Below, one piece after another: positions 474 through 33,031 of a stretch of 64,000 nucleotides of DNA; the first letter of the stretch is position 1, and each line of letters opens with the position of its first letter. Source of the stretch: Asticcacaulis biprosthecium C19. Lineage in GTDB: Bacteria > Pseudomonadota > Alphaproteobacteria > Caulobacterales > Caulobacteraceae. The position numbers and the translations under genes were made by a program. The DNA lies in NCBI RefSeq assembly GCF_000204015.1, contig NZ_GL883077.1, forward strand, positions 231,657 through 295,656. Reading direction: 5' to 3'. The notes beneath the pieces were generated by a model. It was not told where the DNA came from. It did not search any database and saw only the letters and a list, made by a program, of their open reading frames with translations.

Positions 474-2381
474 ATGTCGACTTGCCCGCCCCATGCCATA
501 GAAACCGTTGCCGCCTTTGAGGGCGGATTGCGGCTGACCGCGCTGCGGGCGCGGCTGTTCGACCGTTTCCTCTATGACGGCGTCTATGAAGACCAGGCAG
601 TCCTTGTCCACGAATTCGCGCCGCAGGGCCTCGTTCGGCGGACCAAGGGCGGCAGCATTGTGCCGACCGAAGCCCGCTTTGATGCGCCCTACGCGACCGC
701 CCGCGACGCCTGGCAGGGCGTGATGGCCACGCGGCATCCGCATCTGTTGGCGGTTGTCGCTGCCAAGGGCAACTGGGTGATCACCGAGGCGCCCGGTCCG
801 CGGCTGGTCGATGCCACGGGCGACCGGGCCGGCGATTTCGCCGCCGCGCTGAAACCGCTGGCCGAGGCCGGGACCGTGCTTGGGACCCTCTCACCCGACA
901 CCGTGTTTCGCAGCGATGACGGTGTGGTCTTTGCCGGGCGCGCGCCGGATTACCGCGACCTGATCGCACTGACCAGCGATTCCGACCTGGCCGGACCGGC
1001 CGGATACGCCGCGCCGGAAGTCTTCGACGCCAAGAAGCGCGCCGCCATCGGTCCCGAAGCGGATATGTTTGCGGCCAGCGCCTTGATGTTGCGCATGATC
1101 ACCGGGCGCGATCCCGCCGATGTCCGCACCGGGGACCTGAGCATCGAAGCCGCGGGCGCGCCTGAACGCGTGCGTATGGGGCTGGCCCTGTCGCGCAAGG
1201 CGCGCGCCGAATCGCTCAATGCCTGGTTCGACGGCGTCACGCCGGCTGCGCCCGCAAAGCCCGCGCCGACCCCTCCACCCGCGCCGCCGAAACCTGCGCC
1301 CGGGCTGACGATAGATATGCCGCCGGTCAAAAAGACGCGCATCCCCATTGCCGCCTGGGTTATCGGCGCCGTGGTCGCCGTGCCTTTGGCCATCACCGCC
1401 ATGACGGTCGGGCTGGATAGCTGGAAGCAGGCCGCTACCGAACGCCAGACCCGCGAGGCCCGCGAAGCCGTCGATCGCTGCCGCACGGCGGTCACCAGGT
1501 CGGCGTCGGATGCGCCATCGCAATGCACCAAGGCGTTGAGTAAGATCAGCGACACCCAGTCGCCCGACTATAGCTGGGTCGCCTATAACCTGGGGGTCAT
1601 GTGCGAGCGACGGGACGCCTGCGCTCAGGGCAAATCAGCGCTGGACTATTACCGTCTGGCCGCCGTCGACCGGACCACGGTCCCAGGCAAGGTCGCCAAC
1701 TACAAGGTCGCCAAGCTGGACAACGGGCTGAGCCTGGCCGACCGGCACGACCACTTCGCCCCAGCCGCCGGGGTGCTGAAAAAGCCTGACGCGGCCTTTA
1801 TCAAGGGTCATCGCGCCGTCTATGCCGACGCCAATTTCGAGATCGGCAAGATTTTCGACACCTGGAGCCGCCAGGACAGCGTCAATGGCGAGGAGGCCCA
1901 GCGGCTGTCGCCCGGTTCGACACGGGCGCCGCAGAAGATCGCCCTGATCAGCGCCATCAACCGCTTCGAAGTCGCCAAGACCTATGGCGTCGATACCGCC
2001 ACCCGGCTGATGGACCTCTATATCCGCCGCGGCGACGGCGATGCCGAGTCGGAACAGTATGATCAGGCCGTATCGGCCTATAAACGCGCTGGCGCCCTGG
2101 GCAGCGCCGACGCCCGGTTCAAGGCGGCGGAGCTGTACTTTGCCGGACACACGACCTCGGTCAGTCAGGCCGATGCGTTGGACCTGGTCCAGGCGGCGTC
2201 GGAAGCCGGCAACACCGACGCGGAACTTTGCCTGGCCGCCATGCGCTATTTCGGATACCCCGATGAGCGCGATACCATCGGCGGTATGGCGTCGTTTGCG
2301 TCGCTGACCGTGCGCGGGGTGAACAATGCCCGGCTCGACAGCCTGGCATGCCGGGACTGGATTCGCCGCGGGCAGGAGTAG
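474..2381 (+). CDS. Membrane-anchored pseudokinase with periplasmic Sel1/TPR-like repeats
   Basis: This 635-residue protein is the first gene of a seven-gene operon. Residues 1-250 resemble a Ser/Thr kinase: an intact APE motif (A180-P181-E182) followed by a subdomain IX-like segment, D-M-F-A-A-S-A. The catalytic loop reads L136-G-T138-L-S-P-D-T, so the HRD His and Asp are replaced, no DFG is visible, and no clear VAIK lysine is seen. A proline/alanine-rich linker (about 255-280) leads to one membrane segment (about 292-312). The C-terminal 320 residues carry helical Sel1/TPR-like repeats and several cysteines, and are predicted periplasmic. The layout matches PknB-type receptors, but with a dead kinase. 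I infer a regulatory scaffold for the downstream SEDS/PBP pair. The kinase fold is my reading of motifs. Confidence 0.75.
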   Translation: MSTCPPHAIETVAAFEGGLRLTALRARLFDRFLYDGVYEDQAVLVHEFAPQGLVRRTKGGSIVPTEARFDAPYATARDAWQGVMATRHPHLLAVVAAKGNWVITEAPGPRLVDATGDRAGDFAAALKPLAEAGTVLGTLSPDTVFRSDDGVVFAGRAPDYRDLIALTSDSDLAGPAGYAAPEVFDAKKRAAIGPEADMFAASALMLRMITGRDPADVRTGDLSIEAAGAPERVRMGLALSRKARAESLNAWFDGVTPAAPAKPAPTPPPAPPKPAPGLTIDMPPVKKTRIPIAAWVIGAVVAVPLAITAMTVGLDSWKQAATERQTREAREAVDRCRTAVTRSASDAPSQCTKALSKISDTQSPDYSWVAYNLGVMCERRDACAQGKSALDYYRLAAVDRTTVPGKVANYKVAKLDNGLSLADRHDHFAPAAGVLKKPDAAFIKGHRAVYADANFEIGKIFDTWSRQDSVNGEEAQRLSPGSTRAPQKIALISAINRFEVAKTYGVDTATRLMDLYIRRGDGDAESEQYDQAVSAYKRAGALGSADARFKAAELYFAGHTTSVSQADALDLVQAASEAGNTDAELCLAAMRYFGYPDERDTIGGMASFASLTVRGVNNARLDSLACRDWIRRGQE

Positions 2382-2392
2382 GAGAAGCGGAT

Positions 2393-2821
2393 ATGATGTC
2401 GAATGACGAAGAGGCGCAGAAACGCGAACTGGCGCAGGGGTTCCTGCATTTCCTGATCGATGGCGCCGCCTCGAACATGCCGGCCGGCCGCACGCCGACC
2501 CTGGCCGACGCCATCGCCGACCGGGTCAGCCGCGACACGCGCCAGCAGGTCGATACGCTGCTGCCGCAATATCTCAACCAGATCCTGCCCGGCATGGTCG
2601 ATCAGGCCGTGGCCCGTGGCGGCGCCCAGAGCGCTTTCGGCCGCTACGGCCTGATGGCGGTCGTCGCCGCCGGAGTGCTGGCGGTGGCCTGCATCGTGTT
2701 GGCGGTGATGCTGTTCGCGAAGGACGCTTCCAACCCGGCGACCAACGCTCCCATCTCGACCAGCGTGGCCGACGAATCCGTGCTGCCGATCGACGACGCC
2801 GCGAATTCCATCGGCAACTAA
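2393..2821 (+). CDS. Small single-pass membrane protein of the SEDS/GTPase operon
   Basis: This 142-residue protein starts at ATG 2393, behind AGGAGTAGGAGAAG, which is a better start than upstream codons in the same frame because those lie inside the preceding gene. The N-terminal half is charged and helical (DEEAQKRELAQ), followed by a segment containing LPQYLNQILPGMVDQ. One membrane segment covers about residues 85-107, and a short polar tail would face the periplasm. The stop is 5 bases before the next ATG, so it is co-translated with its neighbours. I recognise no family. A role as an adaptor between cytoplasmic and membrane components is inference from context only. Confidence 0.7.
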   Translation: MMSNDEEAQKRELAQGFLHFLIDGAASNMPAGRTPTLADAIADRVSRDTRQQVDTLLPQYLNQILPGMVDQAVARGGAQSAFGRYGLMAVVAAGVLAVACIVLAVMLFAKDASNPATNAPISTSVADESVLPIDDAANSIGN

Positions 2822-2826
2822 GCACC

Positions 2827-4212
2827 ATGGCCGCCTTCTCCACCCTGATGATCGGACCGGACGGACGCGGACGCGATTTCCGCATCCGTGCCCAGGCGCA
2901 GGCGCCCGAAGCCGCCGTCGCTCCGGACGCCCAAGCCGGAGGTGTACCGCTGATCCTGGCGCGGTGGGCCGAAACCGCCGAGCCCGATCTGGTCGCCTGT
3001 CTGCCCGTGCCCGGCGGCGATTGCGTGGTGCTGCGGGCGCGCAACCAGGGCCGCCGTGAAAGCGGTTTTGCCTGTTTCGCCAATGCCGTGGTGGTGCAGG
3101 CGGGTCCGCAGCAGGAACGGATCTGTCTCGCCATGCTGGCGGCCATCCCGGAGCCGGACGGCAGCGATGCCTTTGCCCGCCGTCCCTTGACGGTCGACAG
3201 CCTGAGCGATCCCGCCGTGCCTGCTCATAATTGGGCCAATCATAACTGGGCCAATCATAACTGGGAAGGCCTGGAGCCGCGCTGGCACCGGCGCGTGGTG
3301 ATCAGCGACGGCACGCCGCCGGAAACCGTGCTGGCCTCGATCCTGACCAGCCTGGCGCCGGCGGAAAACACAGTCATGGGCTGGGCAAACTCGGTGCACT
3401 GGGCACCGGCCCTGGGGCCATCGGCACTGATCGTGGTGGCGCCCGGCCGCGACAGCCAGGTCCTGGGCTTTGAGCCCGCCCGGATGACGGCGGCCGGGTT
3501 TGATGGCGCCCGGTACCTGACGCCCCTGCCGTTACGTATCCGCGACCGGTTCCTGACGCTGATGCCCTCTGGCACAGTGATCAAGACCGATGCAATCGAG
3601 GACGAGGCCACGACCCTCGCGTCCCGGCTGCTGGGCCAGATGGATTACGACAACGGCCTCAGCCAGATTCTGCGCTTTGCCGCCGTACCCGCGTCGGAGT
3701 GCGACGGCTTCTTCCTTCACCTGGCGCAACGCCTGTTCGGCGAATTCGTCGCGGCGCACGGGGCGCAGCTCAAGCGGACCCTGGACATTTTCGAAGCCCC
3801 GGAACACCGCGCCTTGATGAGCCCGCTGGGGCCGGTTGCGCCTTATGTGCTGGACAGCTCTGTCCTATGCGCCGCGCTGGATACCGCCACCCTGACCCGG
3901 ATGATGGAGCGCCACAATTTGGCGGCCGTGCTGGGCGAGCGGCGCGACCTGGCGCGGATTCTCACCGATGTCCGCTCCGAGATCGCCGTCGCCATCTACG
4001 ATCGCCTGCTGTCCGGGGACGTGACGCCCGTCGCTGACGGCCTCACCGCCGCGGCGCGCCGCCTGTTCGCCCGCCGCACGCCTTATGGCATGCCGGCCGT
4101 GCTGAACCGGCACCTGACGGCACCGGCGTCATTCGCCAAGACCCGACTTCTCACCGAACTGGTTCTGCTGATCTATCAGCCGGACATGCCCGCGAGTAAA
4201 CGATATGGCTGA
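2827..4212 (+). CDS. Unrecognised cytoplasmic protein preceding the GTPase
   Basis: This 461-residue protein has no signal peptide or membrane segment. Its start ATG is 5 bases after the previous stop, and its TGA (4210-4212) overlaps the next gene by 8 bases, so it should be produced together with the GTPase. The N-terminal 120 residues look like a beta-rich domain, and the rest is mostly helical. Residues around 134-146 contain a short tandem repeat (HNWANHNWANHNW). Partner proteins encoded directly before TRAFAC-type GTPases (GTPase-associated proteins, GAP1-like) have been described in bacterial NTPase systems. This protein could be such a partner, but I see no diagnostic motif. Confidence 0.65.
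   Translation: MAAFSTLMIGPDGRGRDFRIRAQAQAPEAAVAPDAQAGGVPLILARWAETAEPDLVACLPVPGGDCVVLRARNQGRRESGFACFANAVVVQAGPQQERICLAMLAAIPEPDGSDAFARRPLTVDSLSDPAVPAHNWANHNWANHNWEGLEPRWHRRVVISDGTPPETVLASILTSLAPAENTVMGWANSVHWAPALGPSALIVVAPGRDSQVLGFEPARMTAAGFDGARYLTPLPLRIRDRFLTLMPSGTVIKTDAIEDEATTLASRLLGQMDYDNGLSQILRFAAVPASECDGFFLHLAQRLFGEFVAAHGAQLKRTLDIFEAPEHRALMSPLGPVAPYVLDSSVLCAALDTATLTRMMERHNLAAVLGERRDLARILTDVRSEIAVAIYDRLLSGDVTPVADGLTAAARRLFARRTPYGMPAVLNRHLTAPASFAKTRLLTELVLLIYQPDMPASKRYG
3226..3265 (+). repeat. Short in-frame tandem repeat (15 bp, 2.7 copies)
   Basis: The units cataaTtgggccaat, cataaCtgggccaat and cataactggg follow each other without gaps inside the 461-residue protein. The repeat is a multiple of three and encodes HNWAN HNWAN HNW. 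It could expand or contract by slippage without breaking the frame. Confidence 0.85.
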
Positions 4213-5707
4213 CTACCAATGCAGCAATTGCGGCCGCGACATGCCGCCGACTCAGGTGCGATGCGCCATCTGCGAAAGCGTCGATGAGGTCGGCGTGCCG
4301 GTGCTCAAGGCGACCGCTGCGCCCACCAATGTCATACCGCTCAACCGGCCGCCCGAGCCCGAGTCGTCCCAGGCCCGGTCCGAACCCGTGACACCTGCAC
4401 CACCTGCGCCGCCACTGGACCGCGAGGTGACCGAGTTCCTGCGCGACATGAAGGCCTGTCACGACGAGGATATGAAGATCATCACCCTGCTGGGCTTTCC
4501 GACCGCCGGCAAGACCTTCTTCCTCAACCGTTTCAAGTACGAGATCCAGCAGAACGATTCGCCCTACGGCTGCACGCCCGGCTATGCCCAGAACGGCACC
4601 TTCATCGCCAGTACCACCTCCCCCAGCGTGCACGTCTTCGAATTCGATGAAGCCTATGAAAAGTTCGCCATTGTCGACATCCCCGGCGAATATTTCCGCG
4701 AATACCTGGAGCAGGAAGGCGCCACCGACGCCCTGCGGCCCGAGGTCAAGGCGGCGATCGATGAGGTCTTTGCCCGGTCGCGCGGCCTGGTCGTGCTGTT
4801 GCCGGCCGAGGAGATCGCCTTCTCCGGCCACCTGTATGGCGACTTCATCGATGCCGACGGCGTCCTGCCCTGGCTGGCCCAGCATTACGGCGAGGCCCTG
4901 ACGGTTTCAGGCCTGGAGATCCCGCCCCTGCCGGCGGAGGTTCTGGGCTATCTGAACGGGCTGACATCGGAAGTCATCATCCGCGGCAAGGCCCAGCCCC
5001 ACATCGCCGAGGAAAACTATTATGCCGGCCTGGCCGCCTGGCTGGAACACAAGACCCTGGGCGACAGCGAGGACTTCGACCGCGAGGTGTTGGAACAACT
5101 CGATGCCGAAACCCGGCGCGTCCTGGCCCACGCCATACGCCGCATGGCCGATCATTGCCGCGCCGAACGCGAGATGCACACCTTCATTTCCAACATCGTG
5201 CGGCTGCCCTATGCCAAGGCCAAGTCGCCGCCCATCTATGTCGCCCTGTCCAAGGCTGATCAGTTGGAAAGCCGTGTCGCCGCCGCCCGATCCGAGACGC
5301 CGGCGCCGACCCAGATCCGGGCGTTGGAGCAGGCGCTGATGCTGCGCTCACCGGGTGTGGCCGACATGGCGATGCAAAAGCTGCAGGTCGAGTCCAGCGA
5401 CGGCCGGCCGCGCCTGACCGTAGCGCCTGACCAACTCATGGAAAAGGACATCAAGGGGATGAAGCCCCTGGCCAGCAAGTTTTCCAGCCGCAAGTACGGC
5501 TTCGTCACCGCCTTTGCCGGGCTGGACAAGGCGCGCATCAACTACCGACTGCCCCAGGGCGGCGTCTACGACGTTATCGAATGGATCTTTGAAAGCCTGG
5601 ACCTGCACAGCCGCTATAACCGCGACGGCAAGCTGTATGAGTTCATCATGCACATCAAGGGTCGCAAGAACGCCAAGCCGCTGACCCCGCGCAAGGGCCG
5701 TTCGTGA
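4205..5707 (+). CDS. P-loop GTPase with N-terminal zinc ribbon
   Basis: This 500-residue cytoplasmic protein opens with a zinc ribbon (C6-x2-C9 and C20-x2-C23). A proline-rich linker follows, then a GTPase core: G1 GFPTAGKT (97-104), a DxxG G3 (D158-I-P-G161) and a G4-like SKAD (349-352). About 190 mostly helical residues sit between G3 and G4, which is long for a Ras-like domain and suggests an inserted domain. The combination resembles the TRAFAC-clade GTPases (DO-GTPase type) described in bacterial multi-gene NTPase systems; the family name is inference. It overlaps the genes on both sides (8 bases upstream, TGATG downstream), so it is the core of the operon. Because the SEDS and PBP genes follow, I infer that it gates cell-wall synthesis. 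Confidence 0.8.
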   Translation: MADYQCSNCGRDMPPTQVRCAICESVDEVGVPVLKATAAPTNVIPLNRPPEPESSQARSEPVTPAPPAPPLDREVTEFLRDMKACHDEDMKIITLLGFPTAGKTFFLNRFKYEIQQNDSPYGCTPGYAQNGTFIASTTSPSVHVFEFDEAYEKFAIVDIPGEYFREYLEQEGATDALRPEVKAAIDEVFARSRGLVVLLPAEEIAFSGHLYGDFIDADGVLPWLAQHYGEALTVSGLEIPPLPAEVLGYLNGLTSEVIIRGKAQPHIAEENYYAGLAAWLEHKTLGDSEDFDREVLEQLDAETRRVLAHAIRRMADHCRAEREMHTFISNIVRLPYAKAKSPPIYVALSKADQLESRVAAARSETPAPTQIRALEQALMLRSPGVADMAMQKLQVESSDGRPRLTVAPDQLMEKDIKGMKPLASKFSSRKYGFVTAFAGLDKARINYRLPQGGVYDVIEWIFESLDLHSRYNRDGKLYEFIMHIKGRKNAKPLTPRKGRS

Positions 5708-6339
5708 TGGACATGCTCAAAACCGCCGCGGCCTTTTATGGCGAAATCTATCGCGACCGGCGCAACCACCTGGTGCTGTTGGCGTGGTTCCTGGCGGCGC
5801 TGGCACTGGCCTGGTTCCTGCTGATGGCCCAGGACCGGTGGGTCCATGCCGACATCAATGCCGCCGCCTTCGACCGTGAGCCGGCCCACCGCGCCTGCGC
5901 CGGTTATGACACGACAGCCTGCTATGGCTGGCTCGCAGAACTGGACCAGAAAAGGCGCGTCCTGGCCGTACGGTCAGGGTCGTGCCAGATGGAGACCCAG
6001 TGCGCTTCGACCGCGCCCCAGAAGGACCCGCTGGTCAAGCCGGCGCCCTGCGCCCCTAATGGCGGCTGTAGCAGTGACAAGGCGGCCTGGTATACGACAC
6101 AGGTCTGCCCCATGGCGCAGACCCTATGGTCGCGGGCCGAAACCGGCGTCATTCGCCGACTGATCCTGGCCAATGTAACGGCGGCAACCTGCAGCACCGG
6201 CGCGACCCTGATGGCGCGGGCCAGCCTGAAGGAGGTCGGCCTATCGGGCGGCGTGGTGTTTTCGCTGTTCGGCTTGATCGCCATACTGCTGTCGCCCCTG
6301 CCCGTGGCGGTCGCCGCCTTCCGGCGCATCGGCGACTGA
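5707..6339 (+). CDS. Two-pass membrane protein with Cys-rich periplasmic loop
   Basis: This protein is about 210 residues long. I choose ATG 5707 because it forms a TGATG coupling with the GTPase stop; a GTG three bases upstream is also possible. Membrane segments lie at about 22-41 and 185-205. The intervening loop of about 140 residues carries at least nine cysteines, which suggests a disulphide-bonded periplasmic domain. The gene ends 4 bases before the SEDS-like gene. I recognise no family. The same Cys-rich periplasmic character occurs in the pseudokinase, SEDS-like and PBP-like products, hinting that these parts contact each other. Confidence 0.7.
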   Translation: MDMLKTAAAFYGEIYRDRRNHLVLLAWFLAALALAWFLLMAQDRWVHADINAAAFDREPAHRACAGYDTTACYGWLAELDQKRRVLAVRSGSCQMETQCASTAPQKDPLVKPAPCAPNGGCSSDKAAWYTTQVCPMAQTLWSRAETGVIRRLILANVTAATCSTGATLMARASLKEVGLSGGVVFSLFGLIAILLSPLPVAVAAFRRIGD

Positions 6340-6343
6340 GGCC

Positions 6344-8977
6344 GTGGACATCGGGCCGACCTTTGCCGCCTTCTGTGTCTGCACCCTGCTTTTTGTCTGG
6401 GCTCAGGTCGAAAAGCCGCGCCTCGGGTCGTGGATCCGCTCCGCCGCCCTGTTCGGCCTGATCGCCGCCCTGTTCTTCATAGGCTTTGCCAGCCCCAACC
6501 GCGAATCTTTGTCGGTGCACCTGACGCAGATGGCTGCCGACCCCAAAACGCCAGCGCCCGATGCGCTGATTGTCGGCGACCACCACGACTATGCCGACTT
6601 CATCGTCAAACCCTACGCCGCCGAGATGGGCTACAAGCCGGCAACCGGCGACCACCGCAACTTCGTCACCGTGTCGACGGCCACCCGCACGGTCAGCCTG
6701 ACCACAGCGCCGGGCGACCCACAGACCGGTCGCGCCGCCATGGTGGTGGCGTGGCGCGACGGCGATGGCTTGCGCTTCGATCGGGCCATCGCCCTTGGCA
6801 CGTCCGCCCGAATCTGCCTGGACAAGGCCTGCGCCAATCCCTTCGTCTTCGATGCCGCCACCTGGCGCAAAACCTTGAGCGCTACGCCGGTCACCGGCCG
6901 CACTCCGCACTATTACCAGCGCGTCTTCCGCCCGGCGGCCTTTGGCGCCCGTCAGTCGGCGATCTTGCATACACCCGACGGCCGCTGGCACCTGCTGGTG
7001 CTCGACCCCGATGTCCGCGTCGACGGCGCCGCCTTGGCGAAAAGCCAGGTGCCGCTGACCCCGATACAGCCGGTGCGCGTGTCGCTGTTCCGGCTCGACC
7101 TGCCTGACCCGGAACTGGGCGGACCGGTGCGCCTGGTGTCGCGCCAGACCCTGGCGATCGCCGACACCGGCCAGGCTGTGGTCTTGCGCCCGCGCACGCC
7201 TTTGGTGGCGCGTGCCGGCAGTTGCGCCAATCCGCGCATGACCCTGACCCGGGTATCGGCCGACAATCCAGTCGTTGATTATGGCACGCCGGAAAAGGCC
7301 CTGCTTTTCGCCGCGCTAGGCAATGGCAGCCTGGGCGCCGACGGCAGCTATCGCGCCGCATCACCGATGAACCGCGCCGACGACGGTCCTCTGCTGGGCG
7401 GGGCGACCTCGCTGTGTGATTTTCACGGCCGCGATTTCAGCGTCACCGGCCAGAAGCTGAGTGTCGTGAAAAGCCTCTATCCCGACGATGCCGCACTCAG
7501 TTTTTCGGTCCAGGGCATGCGTATTCCGTGGTTGTTGCTGGCCTTTGCCGCCTTCGGCATTCTTGCCGCCGACCGGATCGGCGCCAGAGGCTGGCAGAAC
7601 GACCGCCCCGAATATGTCCTGGTCGGATTGATGCAGTACCTGCTGACCCTGCGGCTGCTGATTGGGGTGCGCGGCAGCCTAATGGACCCGAACATCGTGC
7701 CGTCGGATGTCTATAGCGACGTCGCCGCCGCCTTCGTCGCCCTGCCGCTCGCCCTGATTGCCTTGCGCCCCCTAGCCGAGTTCGGCACCAAATCGCGCCT
7801 GATTCTCGCCGCGGGAATGACGGCCGTTTTCGCCCTGATCTGGCTGTGGACCGGATCGCTCGACCGGCCCTTCATCACCGTGATTGTCATCACCGCCATC
7901 GCCCTCGGCTGGCCTGCCGCGCTGCACGTCTTGCGGACCGTACAGCCGCGCCTGCCGCAAATCACCTTGCCGGCCCGGATGACCCAGTTGGCCGCCCGCT
8001 ACGATCTGCCCGTCCTGGCCATCGCCCTGATCGCCGGCGCCGCCGTGGCGCGGTTGATCGCGTTTTGGGTCTTCGGCATCCGCGAGCGCGCCGTTATCGC
8101 CGTCAGCCTGCCCTACCTGGCGCTGATCCTGCCAGGATTCGGGCTCTATCTTGCACATGTCGGCCGCGCCGTCGTCAAAACCTTGCCTCAGGCTGTAGTG
8201 TTCGGCGTACTGGTTCTGATCGCTGTCATCGTCGTACCCTTCATTACGCGCGACCACGGCTTCGCCATCATCCAGACCTTCCCGATCCTGGCCGTGGCCT
8301 TCGCGGTCGCCTGGTCGTGGCCGGCGGGCGGTCATCGCTGGCCATGGTTTGCCGCCCTGCCGGCCGCCGCAGCGGGGTTTGCCGCCCTGCTGTGGCTGTT
8401 TCCCTATATCCACGGCGCGCCGCCGACCGGTAACCTGCTCGAAACTCTGCGCTATGCCCTGAAGTTCCAGGACAGCAATGATATTCGCCTGCTGCATCAG
8501 TTCCATGGCGACCTGGTGGCGAGCTTCCCGACCCGCGTGGCCACAGCCAACAGCCAATTCTGGCGCGACATCGGCACCTTTACCGCCTCCCTGACCGGCA
8601 CGGGGTTCCTGACCGACCAGGGCCTGGGCGTCTTCGGTTATCAGTCGCTGCACTTTTCCGACAACCTGTCAGCGGTGCATATCATGCACCCCTTCGGCCG
8701 AATCGGCGCGGTGTTGTTCCTCGGCGCCGTGCTGGTCAGCGTCCATCACGCGACGCGGCCTTCGGGTCAAACCGCTGCGGGCCGGCTGACGGCGCGCCTG
8801 GCGCTGTGGACCATCGCCTTCTCCGCCATCTACATGGTCCTGGCCAATCTCGGCTGGGTGCCGTTCACCGGCCGCAACATCTACCTGCTGGCCGTGTCCT
8901 CGGGCAGCGACCTGGCCGAAGGTTTCGCCCTTCTGACCATGGCCCTTATCGGCCTTCGTCTGGTGAGGCCGTCATGA
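6344..8977 (+). CDS. Divergent SEDS (FtsW/RodA-like) membrane protein with large periplasmic insertion
   Basis: This 877-residue protein starts at a GTG. Two N-terminal membrane segments (about 6-21 and 32-48) flank a positive loop (EKPRLGSWIR), placing residues 50-391 in the periplasm. That roughly 340-residue domain has paired cysteines and no counterpart in FtsW or RodA. From about 392 the chain is polytopic. Its end matches SEDS polymerases: TGTGFLTDQGLG resembles the G-rich GxGL region, FSD773NLSAVHIMHPFGRIG aligns with the loop holding the catalytic Asp, and NLGWVPFTGRNIYLLAVSSG aligns with the N-x-G...LPFTGIPLPFxSYGGS motif. The usual EE after the Asp loop is HP here. Known SEDS proteins polymerise lipid II glycan strands. 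The pairing with a PBP-like gene by an ATGA overlap supports the call. Confidence 0.8.
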   Translation: MDIGPTFAAFCVCTLLFVWAQVEKPRLGSWIRSAALFGLIAALFFIGFASPNRESLSVHLTQMAADPKTPAPDALIVGDHHDYADFIVKPYAAEMGYKPATGDHRNFVTVSTATRTVSLTTAPGDPQTGRAAMVVAWRDGDGLRFDRAIALGTSARICLDKACANPFVFDAATWRKTLSATPVTGRTPHYYQRVFRPAAFGARQSAILHTPDGRWHLLVLDPDVRVDGAALAKSQVPLTPIQPVRVSLFRLDLPDPELGGPVRLVSRQTLAIADTGQAVVLRPRTPLVARAGSCANPRMTLTRVSADNPVVDYGTPEKALLFAALGNGSLGADGSYRAASPMNRADDGPLLGGATSLCDFHGRDFSVTGQKLSVVKSLYPDDAALSFSVQGMRIPWLLLAFAAFGILAADRIGARGWQNDRPEYVLVGLMQYLLTLRLLIGVRGSLMDPNIVPSDVYSDVAAAFVALPLALIALRPLAEFGTKSRLILAAGMTAVFALIWLWTGSLDRPFITVIVITAIALGWPAALHVLRTVQPRLPQITLPARMTQLAARYDLPVLAIALIAGAAVARLIAFWVFGIRERAVIAVSLPYLALILPGFGLYLAHVGRAVVKTLPQAVVFGVLVLIAVIVVPFITRDHGFAIIQTFPILAVAFAVAWSWPAGGHRWPWFAALPAAAAGFAALLWLFPYIHGAPPTGNLLETLRYALKFQDSNDIRLLHQFHGDLVASFPTRVATANSQFWRDIGTFTASLTGTGFLTDQGLGVFGYQSLHFSDNLSAVHIMHPFGRIGAVLFLGAVLVSVHHATRPSGQTAAGRLTARLALWTIAFSAIYMVLANLGWVPFTGRNIYLLAVSSGSDLAEGFALLTMALIGLRLVRPS

Positions 8978-11118
8978 AGCTGCCCGCCCTTAAACCCTGG
9001 CTGATCGGGCCCCTGCCGCTGATTGCCGTTCTGGCAGGCCTGATCGTGGCACCGCGGCCCGACGATCTGAAACCCGCCAGCCGCGGCACAGCCTACACCG
9101 ACACCGTCAACCGGCTGTTCGAAGCAGGCCATCTCGAGGGCACGCGCCGTAGCGCCAATGCCGTCCGCATCAGCGCTGCCTGCCGCAGCGACGAAGCCTG
9201 CCAGACGGCCGTGCGCGACTTCGCCGTCCAGTCCTATCTCAAGGACGATATGAAACAGACGGGCGGCGACACCTGGATCTTCCGCGGCGGTCGTATCACC
9301 GGTCTCCAGGCCTTTACGCGCCTCTATTACGATAACGATGTTGACCTGGCCGTCATACCGCCGCGCATTGTCTATGCCTCGGCGGGCGTCGGCGCGGACG
9401 ATAATGACCGTGTACAGGTGGTCGATCTCGACCGTGGCCGCAGTTGCGACGTAGGCGCCGGAGAGAGCCGATCCGTGGTGGCGGGCGGATTGTGCAGCGC
9501 CGCCCCGGCCTCCGGGTGCGACCTGACGCTGAAGACGACCGTCGCGGGCGGTGTCCAGGCCTATGTCGCCGCGCTCACGCCGGCCCAGTGCGGCCGCCTC
9601 TATGCCGACGGCAAGGCGGTAACCCATGCCACGATCGCGTCAGGCACGGTCCTGCGCATCGACACCGGCCCGGCGGGTACACGGCCGGCGCGGCTGCTGG
9701 TCGCCGGGGCCTCGGGCACGATGGCGGCGACCGACAGCCAGGGCGTGCGCTACTACGATCACGGCTTCGGCGAGCTGGCGCGCTATCTCGAACGCTCGGC
9801 GCCGGACCTGGCGCCGCAACTGAAAAGCGGCAATGAAATCCGTCTGTCCCTGCGCCGGCGCCTGAACCTCCAGGCCAATACCCTGCTGGCCGGTCAGATG
9901 CGCCCACAGGTCGCCGCCGCCAGCCGCAACATCCTGGCCGCCGCCGTGTTGATGGACGGCGTCACCGGCGAAGTCGCGGCCGTGCCCACCTTCCCGTTTG
10001 TCAGCGACGACCTTCTGGATGCCATTCCCGGCTACGATCCCCGGCTCGACCGCAACGCCAACTTCATGAACCTGTCGATCGGCTCAGCCGCCAAGGTGCC
10101 CTTCGCCACAGCCATTGCGGCGCGCTGGCCGGAACTGCGCGAGATGAAGGTGGCGGACAATGAAGCGACCGTCGGGCGTGTCCTGGGCTATCCGGCAGAC
10201 TTCGATTCGCACAGTCACGGCGCACCAGTCGATTTCAGCCGCTTCATTGCCGAATCGAGCAACCGCTACGCCATAGCCCTTATGGCGGCCGGCCTGCGCA
10301 CCGGCTCGCCGCTGACCTGCGAACGCAACTGCAAGGCGTTGCAGGGCGAACAGGGCATCTGGCTGGGCGGCCGGCGGATAACGACCGTGGCGCCCGCCAT
10401 GATGAAGAACCCGACCGTCGCCGGCGAATGGCGTGGCTACCTGCAGGACTATTTCGACATTCCGCCCGGCCATTGCCTGACCGCGCCGGACTATGGCACC
10501 GCGACCTTATGGGGCAGCCGCCGCCTCGGCTCGGCCTATGAGCTGAACCCGCCGTCGCTCTGCCTGACCCAGGTCAAGACCGTCACGCCGGACTACTATA
10601 TGAGCATCCTGGGTGGCAGCCGTTCCTTGTGGTCGACCCTGTTCCTGGCCCAGACCTATGGCCGCATCGTCAGCAACCAGAGGATCGAAACCACCCTGTT
10701 GGCGCGCGACGGCTTCCGCGACGGCTACCACCGCGTGCCCTTCCCGCCGCTTGGGATGGACGACGGGCTGCACCAGACCCTGCGGGCCGGCATGCAGGGC
10801 ACCCTCACCCAGCCCGCCGGCACCGCTCGGCGCATGATGGCCGAGGCAACCCTGTGCAACCAAGCGTCGGAAGACGGGCTCTATCTCTATACCTGCTTCG
10901 CCAAGACCGGGACCGGCCGCATCCGGGCCGGTGAGGACGTGCATAGCCTGGCCCTGGTCATCGAAAAGACGCGAGTCGATCAGACCCTGTGTTCGCGCAG
11001 CGTCGTGGCCATCAACATCCAACACCGCAAGGCCGACGCCACGCCTGCCATAACCTACGCCATCTCGCTGCTGAAGGATCCTCTGGTCCGCACCTGGCTG
11101 GATCGCCCCTGCAGTTAG
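8974..11118 (+). CDS. Penicillin-binding-protein-like transpeptidase paired with the SEDS-like protein
   Basis: This 714-residue protein starts at ATG 8974, overlapping the SEDS stop by 4 bases (ATGA). A signal anchor covers about residues 6-27. Residues 28-300 form a Cys-containing N-terminal domain. The transpeptidase region begins with AAAVLMDGVTGEVAAVP and carries the three catalytic motifs in order: S371-A-A-K374, S428-S-N430 and K644-T-G-T647. The spacings, 57 and 216 residues, fit class B PBPs and related acyl-serine transpeptidases. Class B PBPs cross-link the glycan made by their cognate SEDS partner (PBP2-RodA, FtsI-FtsW). This looks like such a pair, but diverged. It ends one base before the convergent LysR gene. 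Confidence 0.85.
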   Translation: MKLPALKPWLIGPLPLIAVLAGLIVAPRPDDLKPASRGTAYTDTVNRLFEAGHLEGTRRSANAVRISAACRSDEACQTAVRDFAVQSYLKDDMKQTGGDTWIFRGGRITGLQAFTRLYYDNDVDLAVIPPRIVYASAGVGADDNDRVQVVDLDRGRSCDVGAGESRSVVAGGLCSAAPASGCDLTLKTTVAGGVQAYVAALTPAQCGRLYADGKAVTHATIASGTVLRIDTGPAGTRPARLLVAGASGTMAATDSQGVRYYDHGFGELARYLERSAPDLAPQLKSGNEIRLSLRRRLNLQANTLLAGQMRPQVAAASRNILAAAVLMDGVTGEVAAVPTFPFVSDDLLDAIPGYDPRLDRNANFMNLSIGSAAKVPFATAIAARWPELREMKVADNEATVGRVLGYPADFDSHSHGAPVDFSRFIAESSNRYAIALMAAGLRTGSPLTCERNCKALQGEQGIWLGGRRITTVAPAMMKNPTVAGEWRGYLQDYFDIPPGHCLTAPDYGTATLWGSRRLGSAYELNPPSLCLTQVKTVTPDYYMSILGGSRSLWSTLFLAQTYGRIVSNQRIETTLLARDGFRDGYHRVPFPPLGMDDGLHQTLRAGMQGTLTQPAGTARRMMAEATLCNQASEDGLYLYTCFAKTGTGRIRAGEDVHSLALVIEKTRVDQTLCSRSVVAINIQHRKADATPAITYAISLLKDPLVRTWLDRPCS

Positions 11119-12370: not shown

Positions 12371-15148
12371 TTAGAAGCTATACCTTCCGCTCAGGAAGAA
12401 CTGGCGGCCGGTGTGGGTGCGCACGTGCAGCCGGTTGGAGGCATCGACATATTGGTCGTTGAACTCGTCTGTCAGGTTGATGCCTTCGATCGACAGCTTG
12501 AACTTGGGCGTGAGGTTGTACGACGCGCTGATATCGTAGTTGGTCGTCGCATTGGTCCCGGCGACCGAGTTGCCGTCGTTGGACGGCACCGCCGTCAGAT
12601 AGCCTTCGCGATAGGCGACCGAACCACGCACCGAGAATTTTTCTGTCTCATAATACAGGGTGAAGTTGGCGGCGTTTTTCGACAGCCCGACCAGGGTCTC
12701 GTTAATGGTGGGCGCGCCCGGCGTGGTCGAGGTCAGATATTCGATGTTTGAATCGACGAAGGTGTAGTTGAATAACACACCGAAATGGCTGGCCCAGCCC
12801 GGCAGGAAGTCGAGGTCACGCTGGATGTTCAGCTCCATCCCCTTCAGCTCACCGCCCGGTGAATTGATCGGCTGGCTGACCGCGAAGATATCGTTCGGGG
12901 TCGCCGTCGTCCCGACCAGCAGCGAGTCCGGCAGGCCCAGTTGATTGAACGGAATATCCTGACGCAGGGTCTGAACGAAGGTGTTGATCTCCTTGTAGAA
13001 GAAGCCCACCGCGTAGATCGAGCTGCGCGTGGGATACCATTCCAGCGACAGGTCGACATTGTTCGACTTGGTCGGTTCGATGAACGGGTTGCCCGAGGAA
13101 AAGCCGCGGTTCGCGCCCTGGATGGCGACGTCGCCGCCTGGCGTCAGGGACGAGATCGACGGCCGGGCTATGGTCTGGGCGGCGCTGACCCGCAACAGCA
13201 CGTCATCGCTCACGTCCATGGCCAGGTTGGCCGACGGCAGAGTCATATCATAGGTCCGTTCGGCCTCGACCCATTTGATGGTCGAACCAACCGCGGCGTA
13301 ACCGCCGGAATGCTGCTCGGTCTGAACGTGACGCAGACCGGCATCACCGCGTATCGGCTTGCCGAACAGGCTGGTGCGGAACTCGGCCATCACATAGACG
13401 CCGAGATCGGCTTCGTCGACCGTGATGAACTGGCCCCGCGCTGACGAATTGCCGGTGCCGGTCAGGGCATAGATGCCGCAATTGCAGTAGATGTCGTAAA
13501 GGTCAGCGAACTTTTGCAGGTCGGGACGCAGCCAGCCGGTGACCACGCCGTCCGGACCGTCCAGACCGCGGCCAAACCCGGTATATTGCGTCGAGACATT
13601 GGCCAGGTCGGCGGGACTTAAGGTGTTCACCACCGTCTCGCTGGTCCGGTAATAGCCTTCGGAGTCGAGCGCGAACTTGCGGTAGTCGATGCCGGCCTTG
13701 ATCTTCAGCCCGTCATTGACCGTGTATTCGGCGCCCATCTGCGCCGAGTCGAAGCGGTTGGTCACCGCGTTGGGGCGAATGCGCACTTCCGATGTGCCGG
13801 TATTCATCGTCCAGGCGGCCGGGTCCTTGACGTCAAAGCCCCAGTCGATCAGCGGCATGCGCGAGCGGAAATCGTAACTGAAGTCCTGGGTGTTGGCGCG
13901 GTCGAAGGTGACGATGGTCGAGACCGGGTTGCTGAACTTCGACACTGCCGTGCCCAGCAGGAGGGTGCCACGCAGACGATCGGTAAAGTCGTGGCGCACC
14001 GACAGGCTGACCTGGCTGAATTCGGTCTCCAGCTCGTCCCAGGCCGATTGGGTGCGAACATCGACATTGTCGAGTTCGGCATAGATCAGGTTGCGGCCTT
14101 CGACGACGCCATCACGGATGATGGTCTGGGGCTTGCCGGAGCCGGCGCGGCTGAGGCCGATGGCCTGGAACTGGGCTTCGTCGCGGGTCGTTTTGACGTC
14201 GGAATACAGTGCGTCGATGGTGATCAGGGTCTGTTCGGTCGGCCGCATCTGGAACGAGCCGGTCAGGCCCAGGCGTTCCGATTCGATATCATAACTGACA
14301 TAGGACGGGATGCGCGGATGATAGAGGGCGGTCGCCGTATTGGTGTCGTTGATCTGGGCGATGGTGTAGTTTGGCAGGGTCGAGGCCGCGTTGAAGCCGC
14401 CATTGGCGCCGCCATAGGTCCAGCGCGTTATGTTGGCGCCCTCTTCCTTGATATGGCGCTTTTCATAGGCGACCGAAGCCAGGGCGCCCAGCTTGCCGTC
14501 GGCCCAGCGTTGCGAGGCCAGCATGGTGAAACGCGGGGTGACGTCGCGCGCCAGGTCATTGTAGCTGGCCTGGGCCGAAACCACCAACTGACCGCCCTTG
14601 AAATCGAACGGGCGAGCGGTCTGCAGATCGACCGTGGCGCCCAGAGACCCCTCCTCGACATCGGCCGAGGCGGATTTACGCACACTCAGGGAATTGAACA
14701 GTTCCGAGGCGAACATGTTGAAGTCGAAGCCTCGCGTCCGGTTGGTGCCGCCGGAATTGACCGTGCCGCCCGTGGTGGCGATGGCTTCCATGCCGTTAAT
14801 GCGGACGCGGGTATATTCGGAGCCCAGACCGCGGACGCTGATCTGGCGGCCTTCGCCATTGGCGCGGGTGATGGCAACACCGGGAACCCGTTGCAGGGAT
14901 TCGGCCAGGTTCAGGTCGGGGAAGTCGGCGATGTCCTCAGCCTTGATGACGTCGACAATGCCGCTTTCGTTGCGCTTGGTGGAGATAGCGCTTTGCAGGC
15001 TGCCGCGAAAACCGGTGACGACGACGACATCGTCCTCGGCCGGCGGCGCATCCTGAGCGGAGGTGGTGGTGGCTGTCATCGTCAACAGAGCCACCAGGGA
15101 CGCTGCGGACATCAGGCTGCTGCGAGCCGAAACCCTTTTTCTGGACAT
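12371..15148 (-). CDS. TonB-dependent receptor
   Basis: This 925-residue outer-membrane protein has a signal peptide ending in TTSAQ (about residue 31). The region after VVVVTGFRGSL is the plug domain, with LNLAESLQRVPGVAITR and RQISVRGLG characteristic of the TIGR01782-type receptors of Caulobacterales and Xanthomonadales. The remainder is the 22-strand barrel, ending in the usual terminal aromatic (GRYSF). The RBS AAGGAAG precedes ATG 15148. These receptors import oligosaccharides or other large nutrients using TonB energy. No glycosidase or transporter is adjacent, so the substrate is unknown. A family A repeat and a terminator lie just downstream. Confidence 0.93.
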   Translation of the reverse strand: MSRKRVSARSSLMSAASLVALLTMTATTTSAQDAPPAEDDVVVVTGFRGSLQSAISTKRNESGIVDVIKAEDIADFPDLNLAESLQRVPGVAITRANGEGRQISVRGLGSEYTRVRINGMEAIATTGGTVNSGGTNRTRGFDFNMFASELFNSLSVRKSASADVEEGSLGATVDLQTARPFDFKGGQLVVSAQASYNDLARDVTPRFTMLASQRWADGKLGALASVAYEKRHIKEEGANITRWTYGGANGGFNAASTLPNYTIAQINDTNTATALYHPRIPSYVSYDIESERLGLTGSFQMRPTEQTLITIDALYSDVKTTRDEAQFQAIGLSRAGSGKPQTIIRDGVVEGRNLIYAELDNVDVRTQSAWDELETEFSQVSLSVRHDFTDRLRGTLLLGTAVSKFSNPVSTIVTFDRANTQDFSYDFRSRMPLIDWGFDVKDPAAWTMNTGTSEVRIRPNAVTNRFDSAQMGAEYTVNDGLKIKAGIDYRKFALDSEGYYRTSETVVNTLSPADLANVSTQYTGFGRGLDGPDGVVTGWLRPDLQKFADLYDIYCNCGIYALTGTGNSSARGQFITVDEADLGVYVMAEFRTSLFGKPIRGDAGLRHVQTEQHSGGYAAVGSTIKWVEAERTYDMTLPSANLAMDVSDDVLLRVSAAQTIARPSISSLTPGGDVAIQGANRGFSSGNPFIEPTKSNNVDLSLEWYPTRSSIYAVGFFYKEINTFVQTLRQDIPFNQLGLPDSLLVGTTATPNDIFAVSQPINSPGGELKGMELNIQRDLDFLPGWASHFGVLFNYTFVDSNIEYLTSTTPGAPTINETLVGLSKNAANFTLYYETEKFSVRGSVAYREGYLTAVPSNDGNSVAGTNATTNYDISASYNLTPKFKLSIEGINLTDEFNDQYVDASNRLHVRTHTGRQFFLSGRYSF

Positions 15149-15303
15149 CTTGTTCTTCCTTGCCTGTCAGGCAGGGTCTTTGATGCCGTTTACGCATCCC
15201 TGCCGCCTTGTTATGGCGGGATAGTACGCAGCTTTTTAAGACGCCCGCGAATTCCAATCAGGCATGAATCGATGCGCAAAGTGGAATGAACGGGGGAGTG
15301 GCC

Positions 15304-15876
15304 TCACCCCTCCAGCCGGTCGATTTCCTTCTGCAGGCCGCGGGCGCCCAGCAGGTTGACTGCGATCACCCCGCCAAAGAAAACTAAGGCGATGCCCAGA
15401 TAGATCCAGACCGTCACCCCCTTGTCGCCGGCGGAATTCTGGATTGCCGGAATCATGAACAGGACAAACCCCGGCACGAACGGCATCACGTACCACAGCC
15501 ACGCGCTGCTCAGCAGGTTGCGTTGCCGGATCAGGGCGCGGCGATGGAAGTCAAGACAATCCTCGGCGCCATCGCTGACCGGTGCCGCCCGCCCACGCAC
15601 GACAAGGATCAGGCTGACCAGCAGGGTGGCGGCGACGATCAGGATTGAGCCAAGCCGCATAAGCGGAGGATCCAGAAAAATGGCATAGCCGGAAAACACC
15701 ACGACCACCAAAGCGCTGGCGGCGTGTTCGAGTCGGTTGCGCCATTGGATTTGTGATTTGAAGGCGCGGGCACGGGTATGGACCTGGTCGAGGGACATGA
15801 CGGTCATCTCCTTGGGTTGCGATTGCCAGAGGTTCTGGAAGTCAGGATTGGTCATATCGTCGGGGGCTTCGCTCAT
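15304..15876 (-). CDS. Membrane protein co-encoded with ECF sigma factor, possible anti-sigma factor
   Basis: This 190-residue protein starts at ATG 15876, overlapping the sigma factor stop by 4 bases (ATGA). The N-terminal 55 residues are cytoplasmic and helical (NLWQSQP...HTRARAFKSQIQWRN). Four membrane segments follow as two pairs (about 57-95 and 125-180). Position and topology suggest a membrane-bound partner that holds the sigma factor, but no zinc-binding anti-sigma HxxxCxxC motif is present. The anti-sigma role is inference. Confidence 0.7.
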   Translation of the reverse strand: MSEAPDDMTNPDFQNLWQSQPKEMTVMSLDQVHTRARAFKSQIQWRNRLEHAASALVVVVFSGYAIFLDPPLMRLGSILIVAATLLVSLILVVRGRAAPVSDGAEDCLDFHRRALIRQRNLLSSAWLWYVMPFVPGFVLFMIPAIQNSAGDKGVTVWIYLGIALVFFGGVIAVNLLGARGLQKEIDRLEG

Positions 15877-16391
15877 GACCGCCCTCCTGCGTGGAAACGG
15901 CGGCTGAGCAGCGCCTTGATGCGGTGGATACGGGTGGCAACGTGGCCGGATTTCAGGCCGGTGATCTCAGCCATGGCGGCGGCGTCCAGACCTTCGAGAT
16001 AGAGCAGCATGATCTGGCGGTCGGACGGTTCCAGGCTCTGGATCAGGGCCATCAGTTTCTGCAGCGCCCGGGCATGGCTGGTGTCGGCTTCGATATCGCT
16101 GCCGTCGTTGATTTCGGCGGCGGCATCCAGCGTGACCCAGGCGCCGCGGCGGCGTTCCTTCAGGACATGTGACGTGGCGGTGTTGTGCGCGACGCGATAG
16201 ACCCAGGTGCGCGTGGAACAGCGGCCGTCGAACAGAGCCAGACTCTTCCACACGGCGACGTGGATGTCCTGGACCAGGTCGCGGCAGCGTTCGGGATGGG
16301 CTTCGTAGCCGCGGGCGAGGCGTTCCAGGGCCGGGCCGAACTCGGCGGCGGCCTCCTGGTAGCGTCGATCCTGTTCAGCGGTTGCGGTCAT
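15873..16391 (-). CDS. ECF-family RNA polymerase sigma factor
   Basis: This 172-residue protein has a sigma region 2 (about residues 20-85, with DLVQDIHVAVWKSL and TWVYRVAHNTATSH) and a sigma region 4 HTH (about 115-165, with LEPSDRQIMLLYLEGLD and SGHVATRIHRIKALL). Regions 1.1 and 3 are absent, as in group 4 sigma factors. It is translationally coupled to the membrane protein downstream. No ECF promoter could be assigned with confidence in front of the pair, so the signal and regulon are unknown. Confidence 0.9.
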   Translation of the reverse strand: MTATAEQDRRYQEAAAEFGPALERLARGYEAHPERCRDLVQDIHVAVWKSLALFDGRCSTRTWVYRVAHNTATSHVLKERRRGAWVTLDAAAEINDGSDIEADTSHARALQKLMALIQSLEPSDRQIMLLYLEGLDAAAMAEITGLKSGHVATRIHRIKALLSRRFHAGGRS

Positions 16392-27109: not shown

Positions 27110-27670
27110 CTAGCTCGGTCCGGTCACCGCCGCGCCGTTTCGCGGATGGTGGAAGAAGGTGTCCTTGAACTTCGTCTCGCCCGGAAGGAAGTTGCCGATC
27201 GGCGAATCATAGTCATACTCGACCTCGGTCACGATCAGGCTTTCATTGGCCGAGATCTGCGCCGTCGTCACCGTTGCGAGTGTAGCACCATTTGTATACT
27301 CCGCCAGCCCGTTGCCGTTGTCGACGCTCCAGATGACCTTGGCCTGGTTCGAAGAATTCATCGTCACGCAGGTCAAACGCATCTTAAGATTGGTACCCGT
27401 CGAGAAGGGCTGTAGCATCGAAGTGCCAATCGCCCACAGATCGGTGATATTGGCGCTGGACAAGGTTTCCGACTGCGCCGCCAGATCGCCGATCGTGGCC
27501 GCCAGATGCGACGTCCGGCGCGACGCCATCATGCCCAGGGTCAACTCGGCCAGGCTGAGATAAGCCATGATCAGCAGCGGCGCCACCATAGCGAATTCAA
27601 TGGCGGACACGCCGCGTTTGTCAGCTAAAAAGGCCTTGAGCGAGAACAGTTGGTTCAGACGACGTAACAT
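27110..27670 (-). CDS. TadE/TadF-like pilus pseudopilin
   Basis: This 186-residue protein has a short basic N-terminus, then DKRGVSAIEFAMVAPLLIMAYLS, a pseudopilin-like helix with the G-x-x-x-x-E pattern at about residues 17-40. The rest is a predicted extracytoplasmic beta-rich domain with one or two cysteines. TadE/F proteins are minor pseudopilins of the Flp/Tad system. It overlaps the upstream TadE-like gene by one base, so the pair is co-translated. It is divergent from the main cpa operon. Confidence 0.82.
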   Translation of the reverse strand: MLRRLNQLFSLKAFLADKRGVSAIEFAMVAPLLIMAYLSLAELTLGMMASRRTSHLAATIGDLAAQSETLSSANITDLWAIGTSMLQPFSTGTNLKMRLTCVTMNSSNQAKVIWSVDNGNGLAEYTNGATLATVTTAQISANESLIVTEVEYDYDSPIGNFLPGETKFKDTFFHHPRNGAAVTGPS

Positions 27671-28215
27671 CAGAAGGGCTCATTCCGGAAGACGACCTTG
27701 GACGTGATCACCGCATCCTGGTTGCTCAGGGTCGTCAGACCCGCGTTCAGGAAGGGCGTAAATAGCGGCCATTCATAGTAGGCGCGGACCAGTTGTATCT
27801 TGGAAGCACCCCCGATATTGAAATTGAACTTGCTCTCGTCGAATTCGCCGTCCTTGATCAGGTCCGTCGTCGGGATTTCCGAGAAGTTGTTGTAGGTTGT
27901 CACATCGATCTTCAGGCTGCTCATACAACTGCCCGACAGCCAACCCATCTTGTCGCAAACCTTCTGCTTGAAGACCGTCAACGACGTGTTGCCCGTTGTC
28001 GCAATCCCGGTCCGGATCTGGCGCGATGCCACATCCGTCGCATTGTCCAGGCTCACCGACAGCAGGATCACCAGGGCCAGCTCGATACAGGCACAAATCA
28101 GGAAGACCAGCGGCCCCGCGATCAGCGCGAATTCCACCGCAGCCGCGCCCTTATGGTCGCGGCAAAAACTCTGAAGACGGTTACGAACGGTAGGGATGGC
28201 CATAGCTGAGGTCAT
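27670..28215 (-). CDS. TadE-like pilus pseudopilin
   Basis: This protein of about 181 residues starts at ATG 28215 behind GAGAAAG; a TTG 12 bases upstream and an ATG at 28203 are alternatives. Residues 20-50 read DHKGAAAVEFALIAGPLVFLI, a TadE-type prepilin segment with Glu five residues after the processing Gly. The extracytoplasmic part has a Cys pair (KVCDKMGWLSGSCMSS) likely to form a disulphide. It is expected to be a minor component of the Flp pilus encoded next door. Confidence 0.82.
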   Translation of the reverse strand: MTSAMAIPTVRNRLQSFCRDHKGAAAVEFALIAGPLVFLICACIELALVILLSVSLDNATDVASRQIRTGIATTGNTSLTVFKQKVCDKMGWLSGSCMSSLKIDVTTYNNFSEIPTTDLIKDGEFDESKFNFNIGGASKIQLVRAYYEWPLFTPFLNAGLTTLSNQDAVITSKVVFRNEPF

Positions 28216-28287
28216 GCGCTTTCTCAATTCATCGGCAACTCTTACACCGCCGGGGTCAACAGTCCGTTAAACTACGCCCAGAAATGC

Positions 28288-28324
28288 AAAATCCGTGCCG
28301 TACACAGGGCACGACACGGATTTT
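28288..28324 (-). terminator. Terminator after the pilus N-domain gene
   Basis: AAAATCCGTGCCG (28288-28300) pairs with CGACACGGATTTT (28312-28324) with one mismatch, giving a U-rich 3' side on the minus strand. It lies 22 bases after the stop of the gene at 28346-28834. Confidence 0.65.
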
Positions 28325-28345
28325 CTGTCTCACAAACAATTATTC

Positions 28346-29394: not shown

Positions 29395-29439
29395 TAATCA
29401 CCGACAGTCAAAGCGTACCGATCGAAAGACCGGACCTTG

Positions 29440-29473: not shown

Positions 29474-29496
29474 CTATCCGAAAGACACCAATAGCC

Positions 29497-33021: not shown

Positions 33022-33031
33022 GAAAGCGACC

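Follow-up and report, generated by a model that had tools for sequence, protein, structure and literature searches.

Described systems and the operon

Elongation, division and sporulation are driven by conserved pairs of a SEDS polymerase and a class B penicillin-binding protein (PBP), and the actinobacterial pknB-pbpA-rodA cluster brings the genes for a kinase, a SEDS protein and a class B PBP together. DO-GTPases, in the account of Kaur et al. 2020 (PMC7159879), are TRAFAC GTPases with a Walker-B Glu, often carry zinc ribbons and are paired with GAP1. Here we analyze a seven-gene operon at positions 474-11118 of a 64,000-nucleotide stretch of the Asticcacaulis biprosthecium C19 genome (contig NZ_GL883077.1, positions 231,657 to 295,656; hereafter ‘the window’), which encodes a kinase-like protein, a putative GTPase and a divergent SEDS-PBP pair. 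We consider it probable that six of these genes (genes 2-7), often together with a pseudokinase gene, form a module that specifies an accessory peptidoglycan synthase under G-protein control.

The seven plus-strand genes were confirmed from the list of open reading frames (ORFs) of the window. Where neighboring genes do not overlap, the gaps between them do not exceed 11 bases, as an earlier note on this DNA had stated, provided that gene 2 starts at the inner ATG at 2393. The listed ORF of gene 7 starts at 8806; its likely start is the ATG at 8974, which gives a 4-base overlap with the gene 6 stop. Short overlaps between the SEDS and PBP genes recur in related loci where the ORF start is unambiguous, e.g. 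in L016, L018, L019, L105, L109, L110 and L111. The genes are as follows:

474..2381 (+): gene 1, kinase-like domain lacking the catalytic lysine, one transmembrane (TM) segment, Sel1-type C-terminus
2393..2821 (+; alternative start 2348): gene 2 (gene A), N-terminal part, one TM segment, short tail
2827..4212 (+): gene 3 (gene B), soluble putative partner protein with no known domain
4205..5707 (+): gene 4, zinc-ribbon GTPase with P-loop, DxPGE and (S/T)KAD
5704..6339 (+): gene 5 (gene C), two-TM protein with a Cys-rich domain between the TM segments
6344..8977 (+): gene 6, divergent putative SEDS-fold protein, 15 predicted TM segments, extra periplasmic domain at residues 48-396
8974..11118 (+): gene 7, divergent class B PBP-type transpeptidase with SAAK, SSN and KTGT

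Pfam, NCBIfam and PADLOC searches with the seven proteins gave weak matches only, none of them above a curated cut-off where one exists. The likeness to RodA-PBP2 and FtsW-FtsI lies in the folds, the adjacent gene pair, the transpeptidase motifs, an Asp at the apparent SEDS catalytic position and a large periplasmic loop before the last three TM segments. The module differs from these systems in that the SEDS family model PF01098 fails, in the extra TM segments and a periplasmic domain of ∼350 residues, in the larger N-terminus of the PBP, and in being accessory, patchy and tied to a GTPase operon. With the pknB-pbpA-rodA cluster it has in common that kinase-like, SEDS and class B PBP genes lie close together (12 of 21 loci examined). 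However, the kinase-like protein appears to be inactive, the four kinase-like proteins scanned gave no PASTA match, and we know of no counterpart of the GTPase, A, B and C genes in that cluster. The earlier note knew of no described system with this gene set, and we likewise found none in the open-access literature searched, a search of limited scope judged by titles and abstracts.

Conservation and distribution of the gene set

Relatives were collected by scanning genome contigs with a four-member SEDS-like profile, which yielded seven loci from 32 pattern stretches, and further loci came from genome searches. The examined set comprises 21 distinct loci: the window, L009, L012-L019, L100 and L102-L111 (duplicate records are L007 = L012, L008 = L018, L099 = L014 and L101 = L015). 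The PBP gene directly follows the SEDS gene in 20 of the 21; the remaining one is L014, whose contig stops behind the SEDS gene. A GTPase gene lies upstream of the SEDS gene in all 18 loci that have sequence there, the contigs of L015, L108 and L109 ending first. The same arrangement is seen in the eleven loci that were detected with only the SEDS profile, at a time when profiles of the other genes already existed: the PBP gene is next in 11/11, and the GTPase gene is upstream in 9/9 with sequence. The earlier note had named two outcomes that would speak against it, namely no SEDS or PBP fold similarity, or genes not staying together. Neither came about: the SEDS, PBP and GTPase genes stay together, and both folds were matched, that of the SEDS-like protein with moderate support (see the next section). 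The SEDS and PBP trees have their main groups in common, with L016 placed differently, and mirror-tree correlations are 0.87-0.95, values that include shared species history.

The closest relative, in the same-genus genome of Asticcacaulis sp. AC402 (G052, contig NZ_AWGC01000021.1; locus L012), carries the whole operon. At the protein level, genes 1, 4, 5, 6 and 7 are 71-80% identical between the two genomes, whereas gene 2 stands at 63% and gene 3 at 58%. The dN/dS values are 0.15-0.39 across six genes (gene 5 not included). Because of this protein identity, the dN/dS values and the recurrence of the gene order in distant loci, the operon is more than a chance assembly. The operon flanks in AC402 show no DNA similarity to those of the window (one pair compared).

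The module is rare and patchy yet tightly conserved as a gene set. In the host family, 18 of 390 genomes match a ten-member SEDS-like profile if G1076, a marginal hit with two stops (E 2.7e-4, 111 aa), is counted; these fall into 5 of 22 genera, or 4 without the marginal one. With the four-member profile, 2 of 385 genomes drawn from the class match, the window's own included, and in a phylum draw the only match among 398 genomes is the window's own. Members beyond Caulobacterales come from Sphingosinicella, Sphingomonadales and Beijerinckiaceae records, and Brevundimonas records contain the module as well. The earlier note had named conserved synteny across Caulobacterales as support for one system; the gene order is conserved, and its occurrence is patchy and also extends outside that order.

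This distribution bears on whether the operon could serve the morphogenesis of prosthecae or of other zones of localised growth. The host genus would suit such a role, and A. excentricus is reported to have localised PBP2-dependent growth (PMC12130487). However, the GTPase occurs in only 2 of 25 Asticcacaulis genomes (the same two that have the SEDS gene), and members occur in Sphingosinicella, Brevundimonas and Beijerinckiaceae, so we regard this role as highly improbable.

The SEDS-fold protein and its transpeptidase partner

To assign gene 6 we relied largely on a structural model. A Foldseek search with it against 350,542 PDB chains placed 8p1u_A (FtsWIQLB complex) at rank 1 and 6pl5_A at rank 3, both with prob 0.99, followed by the RodA structures 6bas (rank 5) and 6bar (rank 10). 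The chain 6pl5_A belongs to a peptidoglycan synthase complex, and we take it to be RodA. The same complex is hit by both proteins of the pair, since its chain B is the best PDB match of the PBP profile. The SEDS-like identity that the earlier note had given to gene 6 thus receives moderate support from the model, and we treat the product as a probable SEDS-fold protein.

The predicted topology agrees with this assignment. A large loop (residues 691-777) is followed by three helices, and counting back from it the K+R content per residue is 0.173 in inside loops and 0.065 in short outside loops. Overall, 15 TM segments are predicted, with the SEDS-like core starting at about residue 482 and the ∼350-residue periplasmic domain preceding it. 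A profile comparison with 30 FtsW/RodA sequences scores poorly (see below), yet its C-terminal part stays collinear for 140 columns, with Asp773 (HxSDN), located at the end of the large loop, aligned to the Asp of FtsW HTDF. R570, E581 and D773 are invariant in all ten SEDS-like family members. In a study on E. coli RodA (PMC10449877), D262 is central to the modelled reaction, with the fragments R109-Q111, E258-F263 and S340-G343 around it. We read Asp773 as the likely counterpart of RodA D262, i.e. as the Asp at the SEDS catalytic position. In the genome that harbors the window, just two other genes match PF01098 at E ≤ 0.001.

An FHA domain, suspected by eye in the N-terminal region of gene 6, was rejected. 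Compared with 10 FHA sequences, the first half of the region gave E 0.048 over 13 columns (reversed 0.64) and the second half E 0.34 (reversed 0.49); moreover, the topology places the region outside the cell.

Gene 7 is supported as a class B PBP-type transpeptidase. The motifs SxxK, SxN and KTGT, which the earlier note had pointed out, are present in 20 of 20 PBPs of the loci examined. Foldseek with the AlphaFold model of gene 7 returned 319 PDB matches at E ≤ 0.001 (best E 1.1e-12); among the best 50 of these, 48 are titled PBP3 or PBP2, presumably class B PBPs, one is chain B of a divisome complex and one bears the title of a peptidoglycan glycosyltransferase. By sequence, the best PDB match of the family profile is 6pl5_B (PBP2/FtsI, E 4.5e-7), seven of the nine members match PF00905 at E ≤ 1, the strongest at 7.2e-6, and GT51 is not among the three Pfam families matched by nine members. 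The window protein has a hydrophobic segment near its N-terminus and a large additional N-terminal region.

These data also bear on an alternative, in which the pair would synthesize or modify a different undecaprenyl-linked glycan instead of peptidoglycan, a new chemistry on SEDS and PBP folds. The extreme divergence from FtsW/RodA would fit it, as would the parts that gene 6 has in addition to a SEDS protein (a TM hairpin, three further TM segments and the large periplasmic domain) and the fact that QPSE is not kept as such in the family, a point that likewise speaks against peptidoglycan synthesis. However, the Asp at the presumed SEDS catalytic position is present in 10/10 members, and the transpeptidase motifs are retained in every PBP, which argues for substrates of the D-Ala-D-Ala type. 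We therefore consider another polymer quite unlikely.

The GTPase and its relation to DO-GTPases

As the earlier note had recognized, gene 4 encodes a zinc-ribbon GTPase, with a zinc ribbon, the P-loop GFPTAGKT, DIPGE and SKAD. The P-loop is present in 18 of 18 family members and DxPGE in 16 of 18, and paired N-terminal Cys/His residues occur in 7 of 9 aligned members (L018 is cut by a contig end). The best solved-structure match of the family profile is the GTPase Der (E 2.8e-5). Against DO-GTPase2 and DO-GTPase1, represented by two sequences each, the profile gave E 7e-6 and 4.5e-5, with reversed controls at 0.71 and 0.95. The Pfam models DO-GTPase1/2 did not match above cut-off (best E 0.0011, 19.1 bits versus a cut-off of 27), and DO-GTPase2 is the commonest Pfam match of the members (5/9 at E ≤ 1). 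Based on these comparisons, the gene 4 product is predicted to be distantly DO-GTPase-like. In L107 the GTPase reading frame appears to be divided between two ORFs that overlap (5472-6290 and 6221-7030, numbered on the oriented locus).

Likeness to DO-GTPase/GAP1 systems as described in PMC7159879 includes the zinc ribbon, the P-loop, the Walker-B Glu (DxPGE), membrane-associated partners, patchiness and, in some systems, a kinase gene. The module differs from them in having a single diverged GTPase below the Pfam cut-off and a constant SEDS-PBP output, in lacking recognizable GAP1, GASH and FNIII domains, and in its kinase-like proteins, since the kinases there are described as active (PMC7159879). 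The main text of Kaur et al. contains no mention of FtsW, SEDS, RodA, penicillin, transpeptidase or lactamase (PMC7159879), and GAP1-N2 was found in none of the 150 genomes searched.

The patchy occurrence and the DO-GTPase kinship make a role in envelope stress or defence plausible. In its stronger form this would be an envelope defence or repair system akin to DO-GTPase conflict systems, in which the GTPase and protein B sense a phage, a toxin or a wall-damaging compound and turn on a specialised synthase for patching or sealing the wall. The profile matches and the shared features just listed point in this direction, as do the unlike flanks of the one pair compared and, in L009, a trypsin-fold gene (803-2674, minus strand; PF13365, E 2.5e-11) divergent to the module, a peptidase class that occurs in described conflict systems. 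Set against this, a relation of gene B to GAP1 is not supported, the window genes gave no match to a GASH, FNIII or effector domain, and the SEDS-PBP output does not vary between loci. Furthermore, no viral relative of the module emerged from the pattern scan (25 stretches, none confirmed), nor a plasmid match for proteins 6 and 4, the two tried. Overall, we find this form of the defence hypothesis rather doubtful.

The kinase-like protein

Protein 1 has a weak match to the Pkinase family (PF00069, E 0.0043, under cut-off), one TM segment and a C-terminus of the Sel1 type, whose best match in the PDB has E 1.1e-8. A tblastn search with residues 1-258 against the 21 loci detected related genes in the window and L012 and, behind the PBP gene, in L016, L017 and L104-L109. 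When the remaining eleven loci were searched with a profile, L103 (behind the PBP gene, E 5.6e-93) and L100 (before gene A, E 3.4e-26) also proved to have such a gene. The gene is thus present in 12 of the 21 loci, or about five of some ten lineages, and stands before the module in the window, L012 and L100 and behind the PBP gene in nine loci. It was not found in L102, L110 and L111 within ∼1 kb behind the PBP gene and 1-3 kb before gene A or the first assigned ORF; in L013, L014, L015 and L018 the sequence is truncated by contig ends. The view that the pseudokinase is outside the system, drawn from tblastn against L007-L009 and the ORFs of L016 and L017, was overturned by these searches over all 21 loci.

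Reading the alignment, we found the VAIK lysine missing in 10 of 10 rows and an intact DFG in none of the nine rows that reach it (L017 has DIA), and the HxD-like Asp kept in seven rows. PF00069 stayed under cut-off in all four kinase-like proteins scanned. We therefore read the gene 1 product as a probable pseudokinase and a frequent partner of the module, in line with the pseudokinase-TM-Sel1 protein of the earlier note. This recurrence strengthens the association and not the mechanism. The C-terminal part of the kinase-like proteins varies between loci: the Sel1 C-terminus of protein 1 has a match in L012 only (tblastn, 21 loci), and the protein behind the PBP in L017 (15776-17557) shows a weak PPC-type domain (E 6.1e-5, under cut-off) and no Sel1 repeats.

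Genes A, B and C

Gene A, with a TM segment at residues 105-123 of the ORF from 2348, has positional counterparts in six other loci (20-63% identity) and reached E < 0.01 in 3 of 9 further loci. Gene B forms an aligned family of seven loci and reached E < 0.01 in 7 of 9 further loci, its assignment in L110 and L111 being by position and by eye; no relevant Pfam match was found among family members. Gene C, the two-TM Cys-rich protein of the earlier note, carries two predicted TM segments with a Cys-rich stretch between them. A script located a two-TM gene C between the GTPase and SEDS genes in 8 of 9 loci; it missed the one in L016, where a 124-aa ORF has two TM segments by eye.

The N-terminus of protein B resembles GAP1 by eye, and this candidate identity was rejected. 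The hhalign E-values (0.89 and 0.24) are no better than the 0.39 and 0.23 obtained with reversed profiles, and, against a score of 13.1 for the real alignment, shuffling the columns 30 times gave up to 12.7. A 7-bit hmmsearch match to one of two sequences was not counted as support.

In two distant loci (L009:15097-15471 and L016:14238-14684) a gene for a small protein with a hydrophobic segment follows the PBP gene. The two proteins share a similar motif by eye (TWEQLKKYYG and NWDEFKTLYG) and are perhaps a further module member there.

Proposed function

Within the accessory synthase that we favor, polymerisation of lipid II would fall to the SEDS-like protein and cross-linking of the product to the class B PBP, as in RodA-PBP2 and FtsW-FtsI. 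The cytosolic GTPase and its soluble partner B could act as an on/off switch, and the pseudokinase as a scaffold or sensor. Proteins A (one TM segment) and C (two) might pass the signal through the membrane to the synthase and its periplasmic domains, much as MreC or FtsQLB do in known systems. Computation established the gene set and its order, the fold and motifs of the PBP, the fold and topology of the SEDS-like protein (with moderate support), the GTPase motifs and selection; enzymatic activity, complex formation, the direction of control and the trigger are our inference. The earlier note had proposed that a G protein and a pseudokinase control an extra cell-wall synthase. This is partly supported: the SEDS-PBP pair, the link to the GTPase and the recurring pseudokinase hold up, and their control of the synthase is putative.

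Several results weigh against the accessory synthase. PF01098 matches none of the ten SEDS-like family members, the gene 6 protein has no PDB relative by sequence search, and in the FtsW/RodA profile comparison E-values were 0.23-0.33, with reversed-profile controls scoring higher. The gene 6 model is of medium confidence (pLDDT 67, pTM 0.73). Its FtsW/RodA matches have E-values of 0.015-0.68, none ≤ 0.001, and low TM-scores over the whole model; because of these weak Foldseek E-values the support for the SEDS fold is moderate only. The gene 7 model is likewise of medium confidence (pLDDT 59, better in the catalytic part). Taken by itself, the window PBP matches no Pfam family and, in sequence searches, no relevant PDB entry, so its recognition rests on the relatives and the model. 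The GTPase tree is poorly resolved, L009 being joined to the window by long branches. The kinase-like gene was not found, by tblastn and profile search, in L009 and L019 despite several kb of flank. Finally, many loci are closely related: because L103-L109 belong to one genus (78-88% mutual DNA identity) and window/L012, L013/L017, L014/L100 and L015/L102 are related pairs, the 21 loci represent about ten lineages and not independent cases.

If the GTPase does gate the synthase, this would be nucleotide-switch control of wall synthesis, of which we found no report in the open-access literature searched. The pair is so diverged that Pfam misses the polymerase, and it sits in an accessory cassette locked to a GTPase and often to a pseudokinase. 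Its accessory nature would make SEDS-PBP activation dissectable by simple deletion, and the extra periplasmic domains may serve as built-in activators. Tentatively, the pair may represent a further deep SEDS-class B PBP lineage that has become the output of a DO-GTPase-like switch plus pseudokinase, a peptidoglycan synthase that would be transferable, work on demand and serve to defend or repair the envelope.

Genomic surroundings

The G+C content of the operon is 0.665, compared with 0.610 in the rest of the window. A phage or plasmid origin was rejected in view of the viral and plasmid searches above and because other parts of the window hold genes for DNA polymerase I and ribonucleotide reductase as well as Tad-type genes. 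On the 3' side, the operon is followed on the minus strand by a LysR gene and then by a TonB-dependent receptor gene. The latter and a nearby gene for a sigma-70 family (probably ECF) factor (12371-16391, minus strand) form a usual cell-surface signaling arrangement. Farther along, 27670-35263 contains Tad/Flp pilus-type genes, with TadE on the minus strand and CpaB/RcpC and a ParA-like ATPase on the plus strand.

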